DNA of 64,000 bases. Source: Woeseia oceani. Lineage in GTDB: Bacteria > Pseudomonadota > Gammaproteobacteria > Steroidobacterales > Woeseiaceae. The stretch is taken from contig NZ_CP016268.1 in assembly GCF_001677435.1 (NCBI RefSeq), positions 2,903,001-2,967,000 on the forward strand, written 5' to 3'. The notes below the pieces were generated by a model. It was not told where the DNA came from, did no database searches, and saw nothing but the letters and a program-made list of their open reading frames with translations. Positions 5,314 to 34,396 of the stretch are shown here, piece after piece; positions within the stretch are counted from its first letter, which is position 1, and each line of letters begins with the position of its first letter. The translations under genes and the position numbers were made by a program.

Positions 5314-5775
5314 TCATAATTCCTTTATGTAGCGGAGCAGTTCCGGCGCGTATCCACAATGTTCGTATACTGCGCGGGCGCGGCGGTTACTTTCGATTAC
5401 GTGCAACGTCATCGCCTTTGCGCCGTGCCGCCGCGCGTTCAACTCGGCTTCAGCCAACAACGCTTTGCCCGCCCCGCTACCCTCCGCTTCGACCGCGACC
5501 ACGATCACCTCAAGGTGCGCACCCGGCTCATGGCTCAGCAGGTCCGGGCGCAACGTAGTCAGGGTCATGCCCACTATTTTCCCTGCAGAAACAGCGACCT
5601 GCACCAGGCATTGTGGCGCATCGCCGGCCAACCATTCGCGCAATAACGCGGCATCGCCGGTCCAAAGGTGTTCAGCTTTGCGGTGCGCCGGTATCTCAAA
5701 AGCGGCAAGCCGCGGCAAAAGCGCCAGCATCGCATCACCATCATCAGTTGTTGCATCCCGTATTTCTATACTCAT
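5314..5775 (-). CDS. GNAT family N-acetyltransferase
   Basis: A 153-residue GNAT protein. The core beta4-alpha3 segment LEVIVVAVEAEGSGAGKALLAEAELNARRHG carries the acetyl-CoA loop (EGSGAGKAL), and ESNRRARAVYEHCGYAPE is the usual C-terminal motif. The start ATG is preceded by a GGAAGAG ribosome-binding site. It is separated from the SDR gene by 35 bases. The acceptor substrate is unknown. Confidence 0.88.
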   Translation of the reverse strand: MSIEIRDATTDDGDAMLALLPRLAAFEIPAHRKAEHLWTGDAALLREWLAGDAPQCLVQVAVSAGKIVGMTLTTLRPDLLSHEPGAHLEVIVVAVEAEGSGAGKALLAEAELNARRHGAKAMTLHVIESNRRARAVYEHCGYAPELLRYIKEL

Positions 5776-5880
5776 CTCTTCCCTGGTTTATTGTCCCGAC
5801 TGAAAGGTCGCCGGACACGAATCACAAAGTGTACCCGAGCTATCCCCTGCTGTTTGCCACAGGCACTTCCCGGGGCAGTA

Positions 5881-6294
5881 TCACAGCCCGGTACGCAGCT
5901 CTTTGCGGATGACCAGCTTTAGACCAGACCAGGTTTCGTCTACGGCACAAACCTTGACGTCCACCAGCCCAAGCGGCAATGCGACTTCCCTGATCGTATC
6001 CTCGGTGATATCGGTGGCCACGCCCGATGCCCGCTTCGGCCATGACACCCAGATGCATCCGTTTTGCCGAATAACGGTGAGCAGAACCGGCAATGTGCGG
6101 CGCAGCTCGCGCTCCTCCCGAGTGAAGAAATGGCAAAGATCGACATCGGTTCGCAAACGCGTCGAGAATGTCACCCCGGCCGGCAACGGAGCCAGTAGTT
6201 GCTGGTAGTGTTCGGGCTCGTTCTTCAGGCGCACGCGCGCCCCTTCGCGAATGCCCAGCTTGCGAGCCAGCGGGGTTGCAGAATACCCAGCCAT
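5881..6294 (-). CDS. DUF3052-like protein
   Basis: A 137-residue soluble protein beginning MAGYSATPLARKLGIREGARV, the normal opening of DUF3052 members. ENEPEHYQQLLAPLP-like, CHFFTREERELRRTLP and GCIWVSWPKR segments follow in family order. The frame is open up to 6363, but that part overlaps the LysE-family gene's tail and does not match the family. Function of the family is not established. Located between a GNAT and a LysE-type exporter. Confidence 0.8.
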   Translation of the reverse strand: MAGYSATPLARKLGIREGARVRLKNEPEHYQQLLAPLPAGVTFSTRLRTDVDLCHFFTREERELRRTLPVLLTVIRQNGCIWVSWPKRASGVATDITEDTIREVALPLGLVDVKVCAVDETWSGLKLVIRKELRTGL

Positions 6295-6322
6295 AATCCG
6301 GCTTACGCGCCCGTTAGTTTGA

Positions 6323-6949
6323 TCATCGTTCGGCCACCAACAGTTTGATCGCCAGCCCGGCAAATACGGTGCCGGCTACCCGGTTCAAGATCCGTTGCGC
6401 GCTGCCCGAACGGCGCAGGACCGCACCGACCGAGCCTGCGAATATGGCAACAGAGCCGAACACGAGCACTGTCGCTACCGCAAAGACCGCGCCGAGAATC
6501 AGAATTTGCACCACCACGGAACCGCGTTCCGGACTGACAAACTGCGACAAGAAAGCCAGGAAGAAAATAGACACCTTTGGATTCGTCACGTTCATTACGA
6601 TTCCGCGCACATACAACTGCCGCAACGTCAGAGCCGGCTGCTCTTTGACCGTCAATGCGCTCGCGCCTGCTCTGAAGGCTTGCCAGGCGAGATAAAGCAA
6701 ATACAGGGCACCGGCAACCTTCAGCGCCGTGAACGCAACGGCTGATGTTTGAAAGATTACCGCGATGCCCAGCGCCACCGCTGTGGTATGCACGATAAGC
6801 CCGGTACACAGACCGGCCGTGACAATCAGGCCGGCACGGGCACCACCCAGTGCTGACTGGGTCAAGACAAAAATATTGTCCGGCCCCGGCGCAAGCGCCA
6901 GCAATACGCTCACTACAAAAAATGCACCAAGTACATCTATCGGGATCAT
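6323..6949 (-). CDS. LysE/RhtB family amino-acid or homoserine-lactone exporter
   Basis: A 208-residue inner-membrane exporter of the LysE family with about six transmembrane helices. The signature LALAPGPDNIFVLTQSALGGARAGLIVTAGLCTG is at residues about 17-52. FRAGASALTVKE marks the cytoplasmic loop, followed by a FLAFLSQFV segment. Members export amino acids or their analogues by proton exchange. No dedicated LysG-type regulator is adjacent, so the cargo is unknown. Confidence 0.9.
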   Translation of the reverse strand: MIPIDVLGAFFVVSVLLALAPGPDNIFVLTQSALGGARAGLIVTAGLCTGLIVHTTAVALGIAVIFQTSAVAFTALKVAGALYLLYLAWQAFRAGASALTVKEQPALTLRQLYVRGIVMNVTNPKVSIFFLAFLSQFVSPERGSVVVQILILGAVFAVATVLVFGSVAIFAGSVGAVLRRSGSAQRILNRVAGTVFAGLAIKLLVAER

Positions 6950-7146
6950 TCAACGGCACTCAGGTGGCCACGGTAGTTGCCACGCATCCTAGGGCAGTGC
7001 CGGGAAACGGGCAAATGGACCCCAGTAATAGTGTCGCTACGCAGGATCGCTACAGGTGTCATCCTTATTCGCTGGCTAGCACGGGCATTGCAGAGACCGT
7101 AACCGAACGGCCAGCCAGCGATCGGGGACAAACCCGGTCGCGACCG

Positions 7147-7743
7147 TTATTTCAACAATCGCGCTTCTGCATCGAGGGCCCGCTGCTCCGTTTCCACATC
7201 GAGCATGCTGCGCAATGTCGCCGTTAGCGGGTTATCCTCGGTGTAACGTTTGCCGTAGTGCAAGTTGAAGCGGTAGTCGAAGCCGTCCGGATTCTTTCCC
7301 TGGATATGCTGAAGTATGGTCTCCAGTTTATCGAGCCCTTTTGCCAGCCGCGCTTCAGCCGTTTCCGCACGCTCGTACTCATCCCACAGTCCGGTGATTT
7401 CCTCTTGCAGCCGGCCAGGCAGCGGCTCAAGCAACTGCAGAAGATCCCGACGCTCAGCAGCGGACTTATCCGGCATACCAACCTGTTCCGGCGCCGGGAT
7501 ATCACCGCTGATTGCTTCACCGAGATCGTGAATCAGGCAGATCTTGACCAGGCGAGAAAAGTTGATCTCGGGAAAGTGCTCCTCAACCAGCAACGCCATC
7601 ATGCACAAACGCCAGCTGTGTTCAGCAACACTCTCCAGCCGGCCTTCCGATGTATAACAATGCCGGATCGTATTCTTGAGTTTTTCCGTGCCACGCAAAA
7701 AATCGAGCAAGCCATTGAGTTCAGCAATATCCATGGCGTCCAT
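7147..7743 (-). CDS. HD-domain phosphohydrolase (HDDC2/YfbR-like)
   Basis: A 198-residue metal-dependent phosphohydrolase. The ligands are visible as His42 (AEHSW), His72-Asp73 (IHDLGE) and Asp138 (GLDKLE). The same layout is found in the HDDC2/YfbR 5'-deoxynucleotidase group, which makes nucleoside monophosphates the likely substrates. This is an inference from the family; no partner genes support it. The ATG at 7743 has a GGAG ribosome-binding site; a second Met three codons in is possible. Confidence 0.85.
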   Translation of the reverse strand: MDAMDIAELNGLLDFLRGTEKLKNTIRHCYTSEGRLESVAEHSWRLCMMALLVEEHFPEINFSRLVKICLIHDLGEAISGDIPAPEQVGMPDKSAAERRDLLQLLEPLPGRLQEEITGLWDEYERAETAEARLAKGLDKLETILQHIQGKNPDGFDYRFNLHYGKRYTEDNPLTATLRSMLDVETEQRALDAEARLLK

Positions 7744-30691: not shown

Positions 30692-31693
30692 TTAATCGGT
30701 CTTGAGCAATTCGCTATAACCGAACAAACCCGCCGAGCCGCCGGTGTGCACGAACACCACGTGCCTGGCGCCAGCCAGGACACCGTTCTGGATCTGATCG
30801 ATCAGGCCGGCCAGCCCCTTGCCGCTGTACACGGGATCGACCAGCAACCCCTCAAGACGGGCGATCAGCAGCACGGCCTCGTTCATGGCCTCGGTCGGCA
30901 CGCCGTAACCCGGTCCGACGTAGTCGCAATTCGCGATGACATCGGCGCGCTTCACAACCCCCGGCGCACCAACATACTCGGCCGTTTCCATCGCCAGCTT
31001 GTAGACCTTCTCTTCCTGCAATTCTTTTGGCGCGTTCACGCCGATACCGAGCAACGGAATGCCGCTGTGGGTTGCTTTCAGCCCGACAATCAAACCCGCC
31101 TGCGTGCCGGCACTGCCGGTCGCGTGCACGATGTGGTCGACCGGCAAGCTGGCGCTGTTCGCCTGCGACATGATCTCCAGCGCGCAATCGATGTAGCCCA
31201 GTGCGCCGATCACGTTCGAGCCACCGCCGGGAATGATGTATGGCGTCTCACCTTGCGCCCGCAGCTGCTCAGCAACAGCTTCCATTTCGGCGTTCATGTC
31301 GCTGCCCTTCTCTACTTCGCGAATGCGCGCGCCGTAAATCCGGTCCAGCAGGACGTTGCCCGAGTTCTTGTAGGATTCCGGCGCATCGCCGACACGCTTT
31401 TCGAAAACCAGGTCGCAACTCATACCCAGTTTGCAGGCCGCGGCGGCGGTCTGCCGCGCATGGTTCGACTGCACTGCGCCCTGCGTGATAATTGCCGTGG
31501 CTTTCTTGTCGATCGCATCGGCCATCAGGAATTCGAGCTTGCGGGTCTTGTTGCCGCCGGTACCCAACCCCGTGCAGTCATCGCGTTTCACGTAAATGTC
31601 CGGGCCACCGAGGTGTTTACTCAAGTGCGGCAAATGCTCCAGTGGAGTCGGCAGGTGAGCCAGGGAAACGCGGGGGAAACGGGATAAGAGCAC
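30692..31693 (-). CDS. D-cysteine desulfhydrase / ACC-deaminase family PLP enzyme
   Basis: A 333-residue fold-type II PLP enzyme. The cofactor Lys49 is in [12 protein letters not shown], and the [15 protein letters not shown] segment (about 76-90) contacts the substrate. The RDD..GLGTGG arrangement fits D-cysteine desulfhydrase (D-cysteine to pyruvate, ammonia and sulfide) and the closely related L-cysteate sulfo-lyase (CuyA). Sequence alone does not decide between them. It is 14 bases downstream of the Asp/Glu racemase gene, which favours a D-amino-acid role. Confidence 0.87.
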
Positions 31694-31707
31694 AGATAGT
31701 TCCTCAA

Positions 31708-32436
31708 TTAGTGTGTAAGTTGAGCGCGCAACGGCGACTCGCCCAGCGCGAGGCTGACCGTACGTCGTGCAAGTTCGTCAGTGGATGATATGAGCGGCAC
31801 AGTCACCTGCTCTTGCTTCAGGACCAGCGGGATCTCAGTGCAACCGGCAATGATGGCATCCGCGCCCTGTTCGACAAGTCGTCGGGCAACCTCGGCCATC
31901 CCGGCGGAAACCGCGCTGCTCTGATCGCCGGCTTTGACGCGATCAATGAGCGCCATCGTTTCTGTCCGCAGGTCGCCTTCAATCGGCAGCGGGACCAGCC
32001 CGGCGCTCTCCAGCGCGTCCTGGTACAGCGCCGCGTCCAGACACGCCGGTGTTGCCATGATGCCGACCTTGCGAACGTTGCCCTGACCCTCGGCAATGGT
32101 CCGCACGGTCACATCAATAATATTAATAAACGGAATGGAAATGCGTTGCAAAGCACGATCCAGCCAGCCGTGCGCCGTGTTGCACACGAGTACCAGAAAG
32201 TCGGCACCGGCGGCTTCCAGCCGTTCCGCCATCTGCGCGAGGTTTTCGCGAATGCGCGCGTCATCTTCAACCGATGCATTCTGCCGGCTGGGTACTTTGG
32301 GGTCATGATCGACCAGCATGCGGATATGATCCTGATCGCGTTCAGCGGGCGTCAGGGCGATGACCTTGCGCATGAAGTCGAGCGTGGCATCCGGACCCAT
32401 TCCTCCGAGTACACCGACGGTTTTTTCCTTGCTCAA
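31708..32436 (-). CDS. Aspartate/glutamate racemase family protein
   Basis: A 242-residue cofactor-independent racemase. The two catalytic cysteines lie in [11 protein letters not shown] (first half) and [12 protein letters not shown] (second half), the pseudo-symmetric arrangement of the family; [17 protein letters not shown] at the start is also diagnostic. It interconverts L- and D-aspartate or glutamate in the cytoplasm, or a similar substrate. It is co-transcribed with the D-cysteine desulfhydrase-like gene. Confidence 0.9.
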
Positions 32437-32759: not shown

Positions 32760-33257
32760 ATGATTACAAGAGCAACGACTTTCGCCTTGTGCCTGCTGGT
32801 TTGCGCGGGCAGCCCGACGGCAGCACAAGAGAACATCGACCAGCGCTCTTATAATCTGGGCATTATCGGCGGCTTCGCCGAAATCGTCAGACTCGGGGTC
32901 AAGAAACTCGCACTGAGTGAGGTGATGACGCCCGACGACATGGACGCCATGCTGGACGACGCGAAAATCGTGGCCCGGCGCAACAAAGTGCGTTTGTACC
33001 GCGAACCCGAACTGATCGTTACCGATCTGTACCCGGCCGACGTCGCCGAGGGCAAAGACGTGCTGCTCATTTACACCGGCAACACCTTGCAGGAATACCT
33101 GGACCTCAAAGCAGACAAAGACCTGCTCATTGCCAGTGACAGCTACCGGGGTAAGGCCCGCCGGGAAATTGCGGTCCGGTTTGGTCAGTTGCTGAGTTAC
33201 CCGCAGGCCGTCATTGACGAACTGATCGCGCAACAAACCGGCGGCGATGCCCAATGA
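32760..33257 (+). CDS. Hypothetical periplasmic protein, partner of the exported D-amino-acid oxidase
   Basis: A 165-residue protein with a Sec signal peptide (ITRATTFALCLLVCAGSPTAAQ) and a mature part rich in charged helices (EIVRLGVKKLALSEVMTPDDMDAMLDDAKIVARRNKVRLYRE), then a beta/alpha stretch (VLLIYTGNTLQEYLDLKADKDLLI). I recognise no family. Its stop overlaps the start of the D-amino-acid-oxidase gene (ATGA), so the two are translated together and probably work together in the periplasm. Confidence 0.72.
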   Translation: MITRATTFALCLLVCAGSPTAAQENIDQRSYNLGIIGGFAEIVRLGVKKLALSEVMTPDDMDAMLDDAKIVARRNKVRLYREPELIVTDLYPADVAEGKDVLLIYTGNTLQEYLDLKADKDLLIASDSYRGKARREIAVRFGQLLSYPQAVIDELIAQQTGGDAQ

Positions 33258-34396
33258 CGTCGCGCCGCACACTCCTGCAATCACTCGCTGCCCTGCCACT
33301 CGTTGGCGCCTGCGCAGGCCCGCGTATTTCGAGCCAGCAAAACTACACGCCATCGGGTCTGCCCTTGCACCGGGTGCTCGTATCTCCGGATCGCGTCGTA
33401 CGCGTCGTTACGGGTCTGCGACCATACCGTCCGACGGGGTTCGTGGTACGGGCTGAGAAGTTGGGCGACAAGGCCATCATTCACAATTACGGCCACGGCG
33501 GCGGAGGTATCACGCTGTCGTGGGGAACCTCGCACATGGCGCTGGAGCTGGCCATGCAAAGCGAGCAACGGCGCTGTGCAGTACTGGGGTGCGGCGCCGT
33601 CGGCCTTGCCAGTGCACGCCTGCTGCAACGGCATGGCTGGGATGTAACGATTTACGCCAGGGACCTGCCGCCGGAAACCACCTCGAACATCGCGGGCGCG
33701 CAATGGTCGCCCGCTTCACTGTATGACGATGGTTTTGATGATCCGCGGTTCTTCAATGACCTCGGCATTGCCATGCGGCATTCCTACCGCGAATTTCAGC
33801 ACCTGGTTGGCAGGCACTACGGCGTTAGCTGGGTCAGCAACTACGTATTGTCCGACCAACCGCCAACCGGCGGCGACATACACTCCCGCTACCCGGACAT
33901 GTTCCCGGAACGGCGGGCGCTGACGGCGATGCAACACCCTTTTCCCGCTAAGCACGGGCTGCATTTCGACACGATGTTCATCGAGCCGCCGGTGTACCTG
34001 CCAGCCATCATGCACGACTATCACGCGGCGGGCGGGAAAATCACCATCCGCAATTTTCAGGACAAACAAGAGCTGTTGACGCTGGACGAGCAGGTCATCA
34101 TCAATTGCACCGGGCTTGGCTCCCGCAATCTGTTCGATGATCAGGACCTCATACCGGTGAAAGGCCAACTGGTGGTGCTGAAGCCGCAAGCGGATATCAA
34201 CTACCTGATGATCAAGCGCGGCATTTACATGTTTCCACGCCAGGACGGCGTGCTGCTGGGCGGAACCTTCGAGAAGAATGAATGGTCACTGACGCCTGAC
34301 CCGGCCGCCACCGCACGCATACTCCGCGAACACGCTGCGTTCTTCCGCGAGATGGACGACCCGTGGGCATCGCCCTGGGACAGCTCGGCGGCGTAA
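33254..34396 (+). CDS. Circularly permuted D-amino-acid oxidase, exported lipoprotein
   Basis: A 380-residue FAD enzyme of the D-amino-acid-oxidase (DAO) family with its blocks in an unusual order. The parts normally found at the C-terminus (GLRPYRPTGFVVRAE, 54-68, and IIHNYGHGGGGITLSWG, 75-91) come first; the Rossmann FAD motif (GCGAVG, 112-117) and TTSNIAGAQW follow. The protein ends with IPVKGQLVVL and LLGGTFEKNEWSLTPDP, the segment normally preceding the GLRP block. A twin-arginine-type start (SRRTLLQSL) with a lipobox at Cys20 predicts folding in the cytoplasm and export. Probably oxidises D-amino acids to keto acids in the periplasm. Confidence 0.87.
   Translation: MTSRRTLLQSLAALPLVGACAGPRISSQQNYTPSGLPLHRVLVSPDRVVRVVTGLRPYRPTGFVVRAEKLGDKAIIHNYGHGGGGITLSWGTSHMALELAMQSEQRRCAVLGCGAVGLASARLLQRHGWDVTIYARDLPPETTSNIAGAQWSPASLYDDGFDDPRFFNDLGIAMRHSYREFQHLVGRHYGVSWVSNYVLSDQPPTGGDIHSRYPDMFPERRALTAMQHPFPAKHGLHFDTMFIEPPVYLPAIMHDYHAAGGKITIRNFQDKQELLTLDEQVIINCTGLGSRNLFDDQDLIPVKGQLVVLKPQADINYLMIKRGIYMFPRQDGVLLGGTFEKNEWSLTPDPAATARILREHAAFFREMDDPWASPWDSSAA

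Follow-up and report, generated by a model that had tools for sequence, protein, structure and literature searches.

D-amino-acid oxidase (DAO) is among the most studied flavoenzymes, with work on it extending over biosensors, cephalosporin processing and neurobiology. Together with D-aspartate oxidase (DASPO), it falls under the Pfam family DAO (PF01266), represented among solved structures by 6rkf, 1dao, 1c0i and 7ct4, and the classical linear order, in which the GGxGxT block is C-terminal, is present in all four solved chains shown as alignments. Glycine oxidase ThiO, the C-terminal domain of MnmC and D-amino-acid dehydrogenase belong to the same larger flavoprotein superfamily. The window analyzed here, a stretch of 64,000 nucleotides from Woeseia oceani (contig NZ_CP016268.1), encodes a protein that shares with DAO and DASPO the Rossmann FAD motif, the TTSxxAG, NC[TS]G, GQ, YxxP and LGGT motifs and, by sequence, also the G[LF]RPxRP motif with its carboxylate Arg and the NYGHGG.G block. 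It differs from them in carrying the last ~50 residues of the classical chain first and in beginning with a Tat-type lipoprotein signal.

The portions of open-access PubMed Central text that were searched yielded no description of a DAO permuted in nature; the screen presented in PMC4432964 counts 54 circular permutations, and the stem 'permut' is absent from the passages of PMC5169069 consulted. A naturally permuted branch reveals at which points the DAO fold can be cut and joined, may offer export-ready scaffolds, and points to D-amino-acid oxidation outside the cytoplasm, the site of cell-wall turnover and of secreted D-amino acids. It also represents a coherent family hidden under the annotation 'FAD-dependent oxidoreductase'.

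The gene for this protein (Table 1) is a single open frame and gives the only match in its own 4.06-Mb, one-contig genome; the coordinates and the 380-residue frame proposed in an earlier note, which was made from the letters of the window alone, were borne out. Read from the N-terminus, the chain presents RR (residues 4-5), Cys20, GLRPYRP (54-60), NYGHGGGG (78-85) and WG (90-91), with NYGHGGGGITLSWG covering residues 78-91, and continues with GCGAVG (112-117), TTSNIAGAQW (142-151), YMFPR (325-329), LLGGTF (334-339), the last helix region and the end of the protein.

Table 1. Features of the permuted DAO gene and its neighbors in the window
Feature	Position	Strand	Basis
Peptidase family S58; homologue beside DAO in locus L061	26986..28173	-	Neighborhood clustering
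DUF5916 protein; homologue beside DAO in L061	28275..30548	-	Neighborhood clustering
PLP enzyme, CuyA (D-cysteate sulfo-lyase) by NCBIfam; also in L061	30692..31693	-	532 bits, cut-off 450
Amino-acid racemase, CuyB (cysteate racemase) by NCBIfam, divergent from DAO; also in L061	31708..32436	-	259.7 bits, cut-off 190
Small, probably exported protein, no Pfam or NCBIfam match, ATGA-coupled to DAO; conserved before DAO in L061	32760..33257	+	Pfam/NCBIfam, sequence
CDS, circularly permuted DAO-family protein, 380 aa	33254..34396	+	PDB and Pfam matches; single genome match
Residues 1-20, putative twin-arginine signal SRRTLLQ, ending in lipobox-like VGAC with Cys20	33254..33313	+	Sequence; R4/R5/C20 conservation; TatC in genome
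Residues 49-91, DAO C-terminal block at the N-terminus, R56 on pig Arg283, NYGHGGGGITLSWG	33398..33526	+	PDB match, rotation test, block model
Residues 92-106, helix tail and junction of old C-terminus to old N-terminus	33527..33571	+	Spacing against classical proteins; best rotation points
Residues 107-340, Rossmann strand and GCGAVG, TTSNIAGAQW, substrate domain, Y325, LLGGTF; classical internal order	33572..34273	+	PDB/Pfam matches, alignments
Residues 341-380, last helix region (ARILREHAAFF) and new C-terminus, without a GGxGxT block after it	34274..34393	+	Translation, block model

Both parts of the chain find their counterparts in DAO, in crossed order. In a phmmer search against PDB chains, the top match is human D-aspartate oxidase 6rkf (whole E 9e-32), which is aligned in two stretches, with query residues 104-359 on chain residues 11-266 and query residues 49-100 on chain residues 280-334. 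Pig DAO (1dao) is crossed likewise (107-345 on 2-248; 46-95 on 273-325), with R56 paired with R283 and G83 with G313; the same crossing is seen with Rasamsonia DAO (7ct4), and the second stretch is weak (6.9 bits) with 1c0i. Across the 17 listed DAO/DASPO chains, it is always the query core, beginning at residue 101-109, that the best stretch places on the chain start. Pfam DAO also matches in two stretches (122.7 bits, E 3.2e-35, cut-off 27.9), so that Rossmann part, substrate domain and C-terminal block are all matched within the family. No NCBIfam model reaches its cut-off for the window protein: the best, ThiO, scores 65.4 of the 250.8 bits needed, with 32.1 of 174.2 for the MnmC C-terminal domain and 29.7 of 383 for D-amino-acid dehydrogenase. 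The claim of the earlier note that the C-terminal blocks of DAO precede the Rossmann motif stands on the crossed PDB matches, the two-stretch Pfam match and the rotation test described below; its limits for the moved block needed a small correction, since homology starts near residue 49 instead of 54 and the junction falls at about 95-110.

The rotation test compares window residues 21-380, by global alignment, with six plasmid-borne classical DAOs of actinomycetes (L059 and L086-L090), each cut to begin at the Rossmann strand. These proteins have the same blocks, show 27-30% core identity to the window protein, keep the classical order in all six cases, and lack a signal in the three with annotated starts. 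The mean global score is 215.5 in native order and 297.3 at the best rotation (start 110), against a median rotation of 222.1, and scores of 293-297 are obtained at starts 95, 100, 102, 104, 106 and 110. When the moved block is shuffled 200 times, the mean is 212.2 (sd 4.8, maximum 230.2); the gain from rotation exceeds chance. A local-HMM rotation scan gave no information, since its best local piece leaves the moved block out of account; the global alignment with shuffles took its place.

AlphaFold models based on four alignment rows, for the full and the trimmed protein, have a mean pLDDT of 49.9 (pTM 0.53) and 55.4 (pTM 0.61), values that make them too weak to superpose. Foldseek, queried with such a weak model, returns DAO or D-aspartate oxidase entries at ranks 1-33, among which 4qfc and 4qfd are presumably human DAO. 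VIA-align, given the second weak model, places an unrelated Rossmann protein first (Z 9.6), followed by 4qfc (Z 9.3, rmsd 8.1), and its list mixes DAO with unrelated Rossmann proteins.

Permuted DAO is not confined to the window. Among 60 genomes, its own and 23 others contain a strong match (E 2.7e-31 or better), the tally of 28 of 60 being reached only with four weak generic matches (E 9.9e-5 to 8.3e-4). Identity to the window protein in alignment A1, which is without L023, is 63% for the homologue in genome G006, 56% for L002 and 39-46% for the rest. At a limit of E 1e-20, a sample of 274 genomes of the class yields its own genome only, and a sample of 398 genomes of the phylum yields 20 including its own, 18 of them outside the class. 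Plasmid records with permuted DAO come from Bradyrhizobium, Rhizobium, Niveispirillum, Kozakia and the actinomycete Nonomuraea, with a broken copy in Mesorhizobium; outside the phylum, permuted DAO was found in plasmid records only. A scan of genome contigs gave one locus, and further scans of viral contigs gave none beyond those first found. On the latter contigs, labelled viral, permuted DAO (L032, L033) lies beside genes judged by eye to resemble those of phage terminases, and these may be prophage edges.

Fifty permuted proteins, the window protein included, could be read whole or nearly so and were counted; L024 and L025 (truncated where their contigs end), L034 (the same protein as L033), L054 (broken frame), L026-L029 (weak generic matches) and L091 (broken) were dropped beforehand, and L032 was retained though its last part is out of frame. 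A block model, built from the same permuted and classical sets and hence informative about placing and not about the match itself, locates the block within the first 40% of all 50 chains and within the last 40% of six of six classical proteins. None of the 50 has a second block copy above 5 bits. Other proteins with the permuted order, which the earlier note had suggested searching for, therefore exist in number, and two of the three findings it had named as fatal to its reading, a duplicate of the block at the C-terminus and a frame error, did not appear: in the window as in its relatives a single open frame carries the order, with three copies broken (L054, L091 from Mesorhizobium and the C-terminal end of L032). 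Those few broken copies are what an artefact by frameshift, misassembly or a misaligned homologue could appeal to. The chance of this is practically negligible, given that the window gene is one open frame in a one-contig genome and that the same order recurs in 50 proteins, whose sources are genomes, one genome-contig locus, two contigs labelled viral, and plasmids from Alphaproteobacteria as well as from one actinomycete.

A tree built from the core only, with the moved block excluded (60 rows, 269 columns), places the 50 permuted proteins on one side of a branch with support of 100/99, which is present in 100% of 200 bootstrap trees; on the opposite side are seven classical bacterial rows, including the six actinomycete proteins, and three eukaryotic rows. 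Two classical rows in this unrooted tree are long-branched and four have an odd letter make-up, and L100 was omitted, its NYAHGG lying outside the pattern used. As no root was inferred, the tree shows one change and not its direction; the presence of the classical order among eukaryotes and across the wider superfamily of flavoproteins suggests that it is ancestral. The exchanged ends, the homology of both blocks, the lack of a second copy and the single origin together describe a natural circular permutation, and the occurrence of the rearranged form in many other bacteria makes it look like one old inherited event. As far as these sequences indicate, permuted DAO makes up a widespread family whose examined rows share one origin, which goes beyond what the earlier note had seen. 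A classical-DAO profile run on 200 genomes of the phylum found five genomes at E 1e-25 or better, that of the window included, with all five places in permuted genes, and no classical form was seen in those 200 genomes at that limit.

In the proposed rearrangement, the last 50-60 residues of an ancestral gene, comprising the strand with the carboxylate Arg and the FAD-contacting GGxGxT helix, would have been put ahead of the Rossmann strand, and the old C-terminus would have been fused to the old N-terminus with little or no extra linker. In an alignment to classical DAOs, the new ends fall after the last helix and before the GLRP strand. In the 50 permuted proteins, WG is separated from the first glycine of the GxGxxG motif by 19-24 residues (median 20; window 20); in classical proteins with annotated starts, the two free ends together amount to 17 (L087), 18 (L090), 23 (L089), 32 (L101) and 50 (L100). 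A join with little or no linker appears to fit if the ancestor was compact like L087, L090 or L089, whereas 32 and 50 do not fit; the three compact proteins also agree with 'one cut and one join', as the arrangement was first described. Fusion of two genes, with a separate fragment gene upstream, instead of duplication and truncation would leave an identical end result, and no intermediate of either kind was seen. It is nevertheless unlikely, because three of the five classical proteins, with their ends joined, would give a spacing close to that of the junction and because the one copy in two CDS, from a Mesorhizobium plasmid, breaks its frame inside the Rossmann motif and not at the junction. 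That copy (L091, 4923-5986), annotated as two CDS, was for the same reason rejected as a natural split.

The predicted export signal is well conserved. Counted singly, R4, R5 and C20 are found in 24 of the 25 close homologues (window included), which accords with the twin-arginine signal and lipobox described in the earlier note. The protein combines an RR motif, a hydrophobic stretch and a lipobox-like Cys with a TatC encoded in its own genome, and the motif and its conservation lend support to the predicted export; the Gly at lipobox position -2 is not the commonest residue there. A Tat lipoprotein signal at the new N-terminus, in the window protein and most relatives, would let the folded, FAD-loaded enzyme cross by Tat and, judging from the motifs, be held by a lipid anchor facing the periplasm. 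By pattern search, RR and lipobox occur together in 40 of the 50 permuted proteins, RR only in four and neither in six. In L047 both elements appear if the gene is read from further upstream, and in L060 the RR sits before the annotated start; L033, L051, L055 and L056 have neither element and L060 has none at its likely start, so that one branch is mostly without a signal, with L052 of the same branch having RR. Export as the driver of the permutation is an idea weakened by these five proteins, which lack a signal at their likely starts, with loss of the signal being possible. Export thus appears separable from and not tied to the permutation, a point the earlier note had not reached.

Invariant in all 50 permuted proteins are R56, P57, H77, Y79, G80, H81, G82, G85, W90 and G91 of the moved block and G112, G114, G117, S144, C285, G287 and G304 of the core. 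Pig R283 is taken here as the substrate-carboxylate Arg, with R56 as its counterpart, and this position is Arg in 50 of 50 members. Against pig DAO, a clear counterpart is present for only one of two active-site Tyr, which we take to be Y224 and Y228: HMMER pairs Y325 with Y224, and the YxxP strand suggests, in our reading, Y228. Y325 is Tyr in 40 of the 50; the ten proteins without it (L044-L050, L053, L057 and L058) are all ten rows of one clade (support 100/100). This clade, which has lost the YxxPR Tyr and mostly the LGG motif, may have a different chemistry on account of those losses.

Taken with the family, the conserved Arg and Tyr make D-amino-acid oxidation the most likely activity of the window protein, which in the periplasm would convert a D-amino acid to the imino acid, and this to the keto acid and ammonia. 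The preferred reading, to which we assign a probability of roughly 0.85, is that the protein belongs to a permuted DAO/DASPO branch of one origin, is probably Tat-exported and lipid-anchored, and likely oxidizes a D-amino acid.

The surroundings of the window gene (Table 1) are shared with one other genome, G006, whose locus L061 holds the nearest homologue and a lipoprotein-like homologue of the small exported protein; the racemase, the PLP lyase and that small protein flank the permuted gene in both, and G006 is the one other genome in which this D-amino-acid neighborhood was seen. CuyB and CuyA, adjacent at 30692-32436 (-) and again in L061, are a probable cysteate degradation pair, and peptidase family S58 includes the D-aminopeptidase DmpA. 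Among 27 stretches clustered by neighborhood, no further sharer of the racemase, DUF5916 or S58 clusters was found besides L061; the simple ORF picking used there missed the CuyA gene of the window and the DAO of a few loci, so that shared neighbors may be undercounted. The CuyA and CuyB neighbors and the DASPO best match only suggest D-cysteate or D-aspartate as the substrate, and neither is claimed.

Relatives of the window protein have neighbors of another kind. In genus g12, six of eight sampled genomes carry permuted DAO, and in each of the six one copy precedes, at a distance of 2.9-3.0 kb and in the same orientation, a methylamine-dehydrogenase (MADH) light chain; locus L067 shows the run DAO, MADH-like heavy chain, MauE, MauD, light chain and CxxCH protein, its heavy and light chains scoring under the NCBIfam cut-offs. 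Permuted DAO heads this operon-like, MADH-like run in L067 (7563-12444) and in L062 (2179-7590). In Kozakia baliensis, only 5 bases separate the permuted gene from the cytochrome c gene that follows it. The MADH and cytochrome c links concern relatives at 42-47% and 32% identity, respectively, and not the window. The neighbors of relatives favor an oxidation of amino substrates that would take place in the periplasm, and combined with the D-amino-acid neighbors of the window gene they suggest a periplasmic D-amino-acid oxidase or dehydrogenase.

The second of these options, a permuted, exported D-amino-acid (or amine) dehydrogenase that passes electrons from reduced FAD to periplasmic cytochrome c or a similar carrier and not to O2, is possible, if tentative. 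It draws on the Kozakia gene pair, the g12 genomes and the L067 run, but the window has no such neighbor, no MADH light chain was found in its genome, the scores of the L067 chains stay under their cut-offs, and O2 reactivity is the rule among solved DAO relatives. The MADH link, moreover, is that of one genus: 17 genomes have a light chain, 12 of them with a strong permuted-DAO match, and the two genes lie close in six and apart in six, the remaining five being without a strong match. It is very unlikely that the protein is no amino-acid oxidase but an exported flavoprotein whose role is to assist or mature a partner, such as the small exported neighbor or, elsewhere, an MADH-like quinoprotein. 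The ATGA overlap with the exported-protein gene, the MADH-like neighbors in g12 and the loss of Tyr in 10 of 50 proteins speak for such a role, against which stand the carboxylate Arg in 50 of 50, the Tyr in 40 of 50 and the racemase and D-amino-acid PLP lyase that adjoin the gene. A more far-reaching scenario, in which one ancient permutation founded the lineage, the new N-terminus made room for the Tat signal, and the resulting membrane-anchored periplasmic D-amino-acid dehydrogenases feed electrons into a cytochrome c or quinoprotein chain and largely replace classical DAO in the phylum, is speculative and rather doubtful.

Several further observations concern the genes around permuted DAO in relatives. 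Divergent from the MADH-like run of L067 is a gene for a 628-residue flavoprotein-like protein with RR near its start (5556-7442, -), and its cluster mate in L062 (7234-9078) matches NAD_binding_8. On the rhizobial plasmids of L055, L060 and L091, the permuted gene adjoins a thiamine-pyrophosphate enzyme gene, and in two of these three it also follows a gene for an FAD-binding oxidoreductase.
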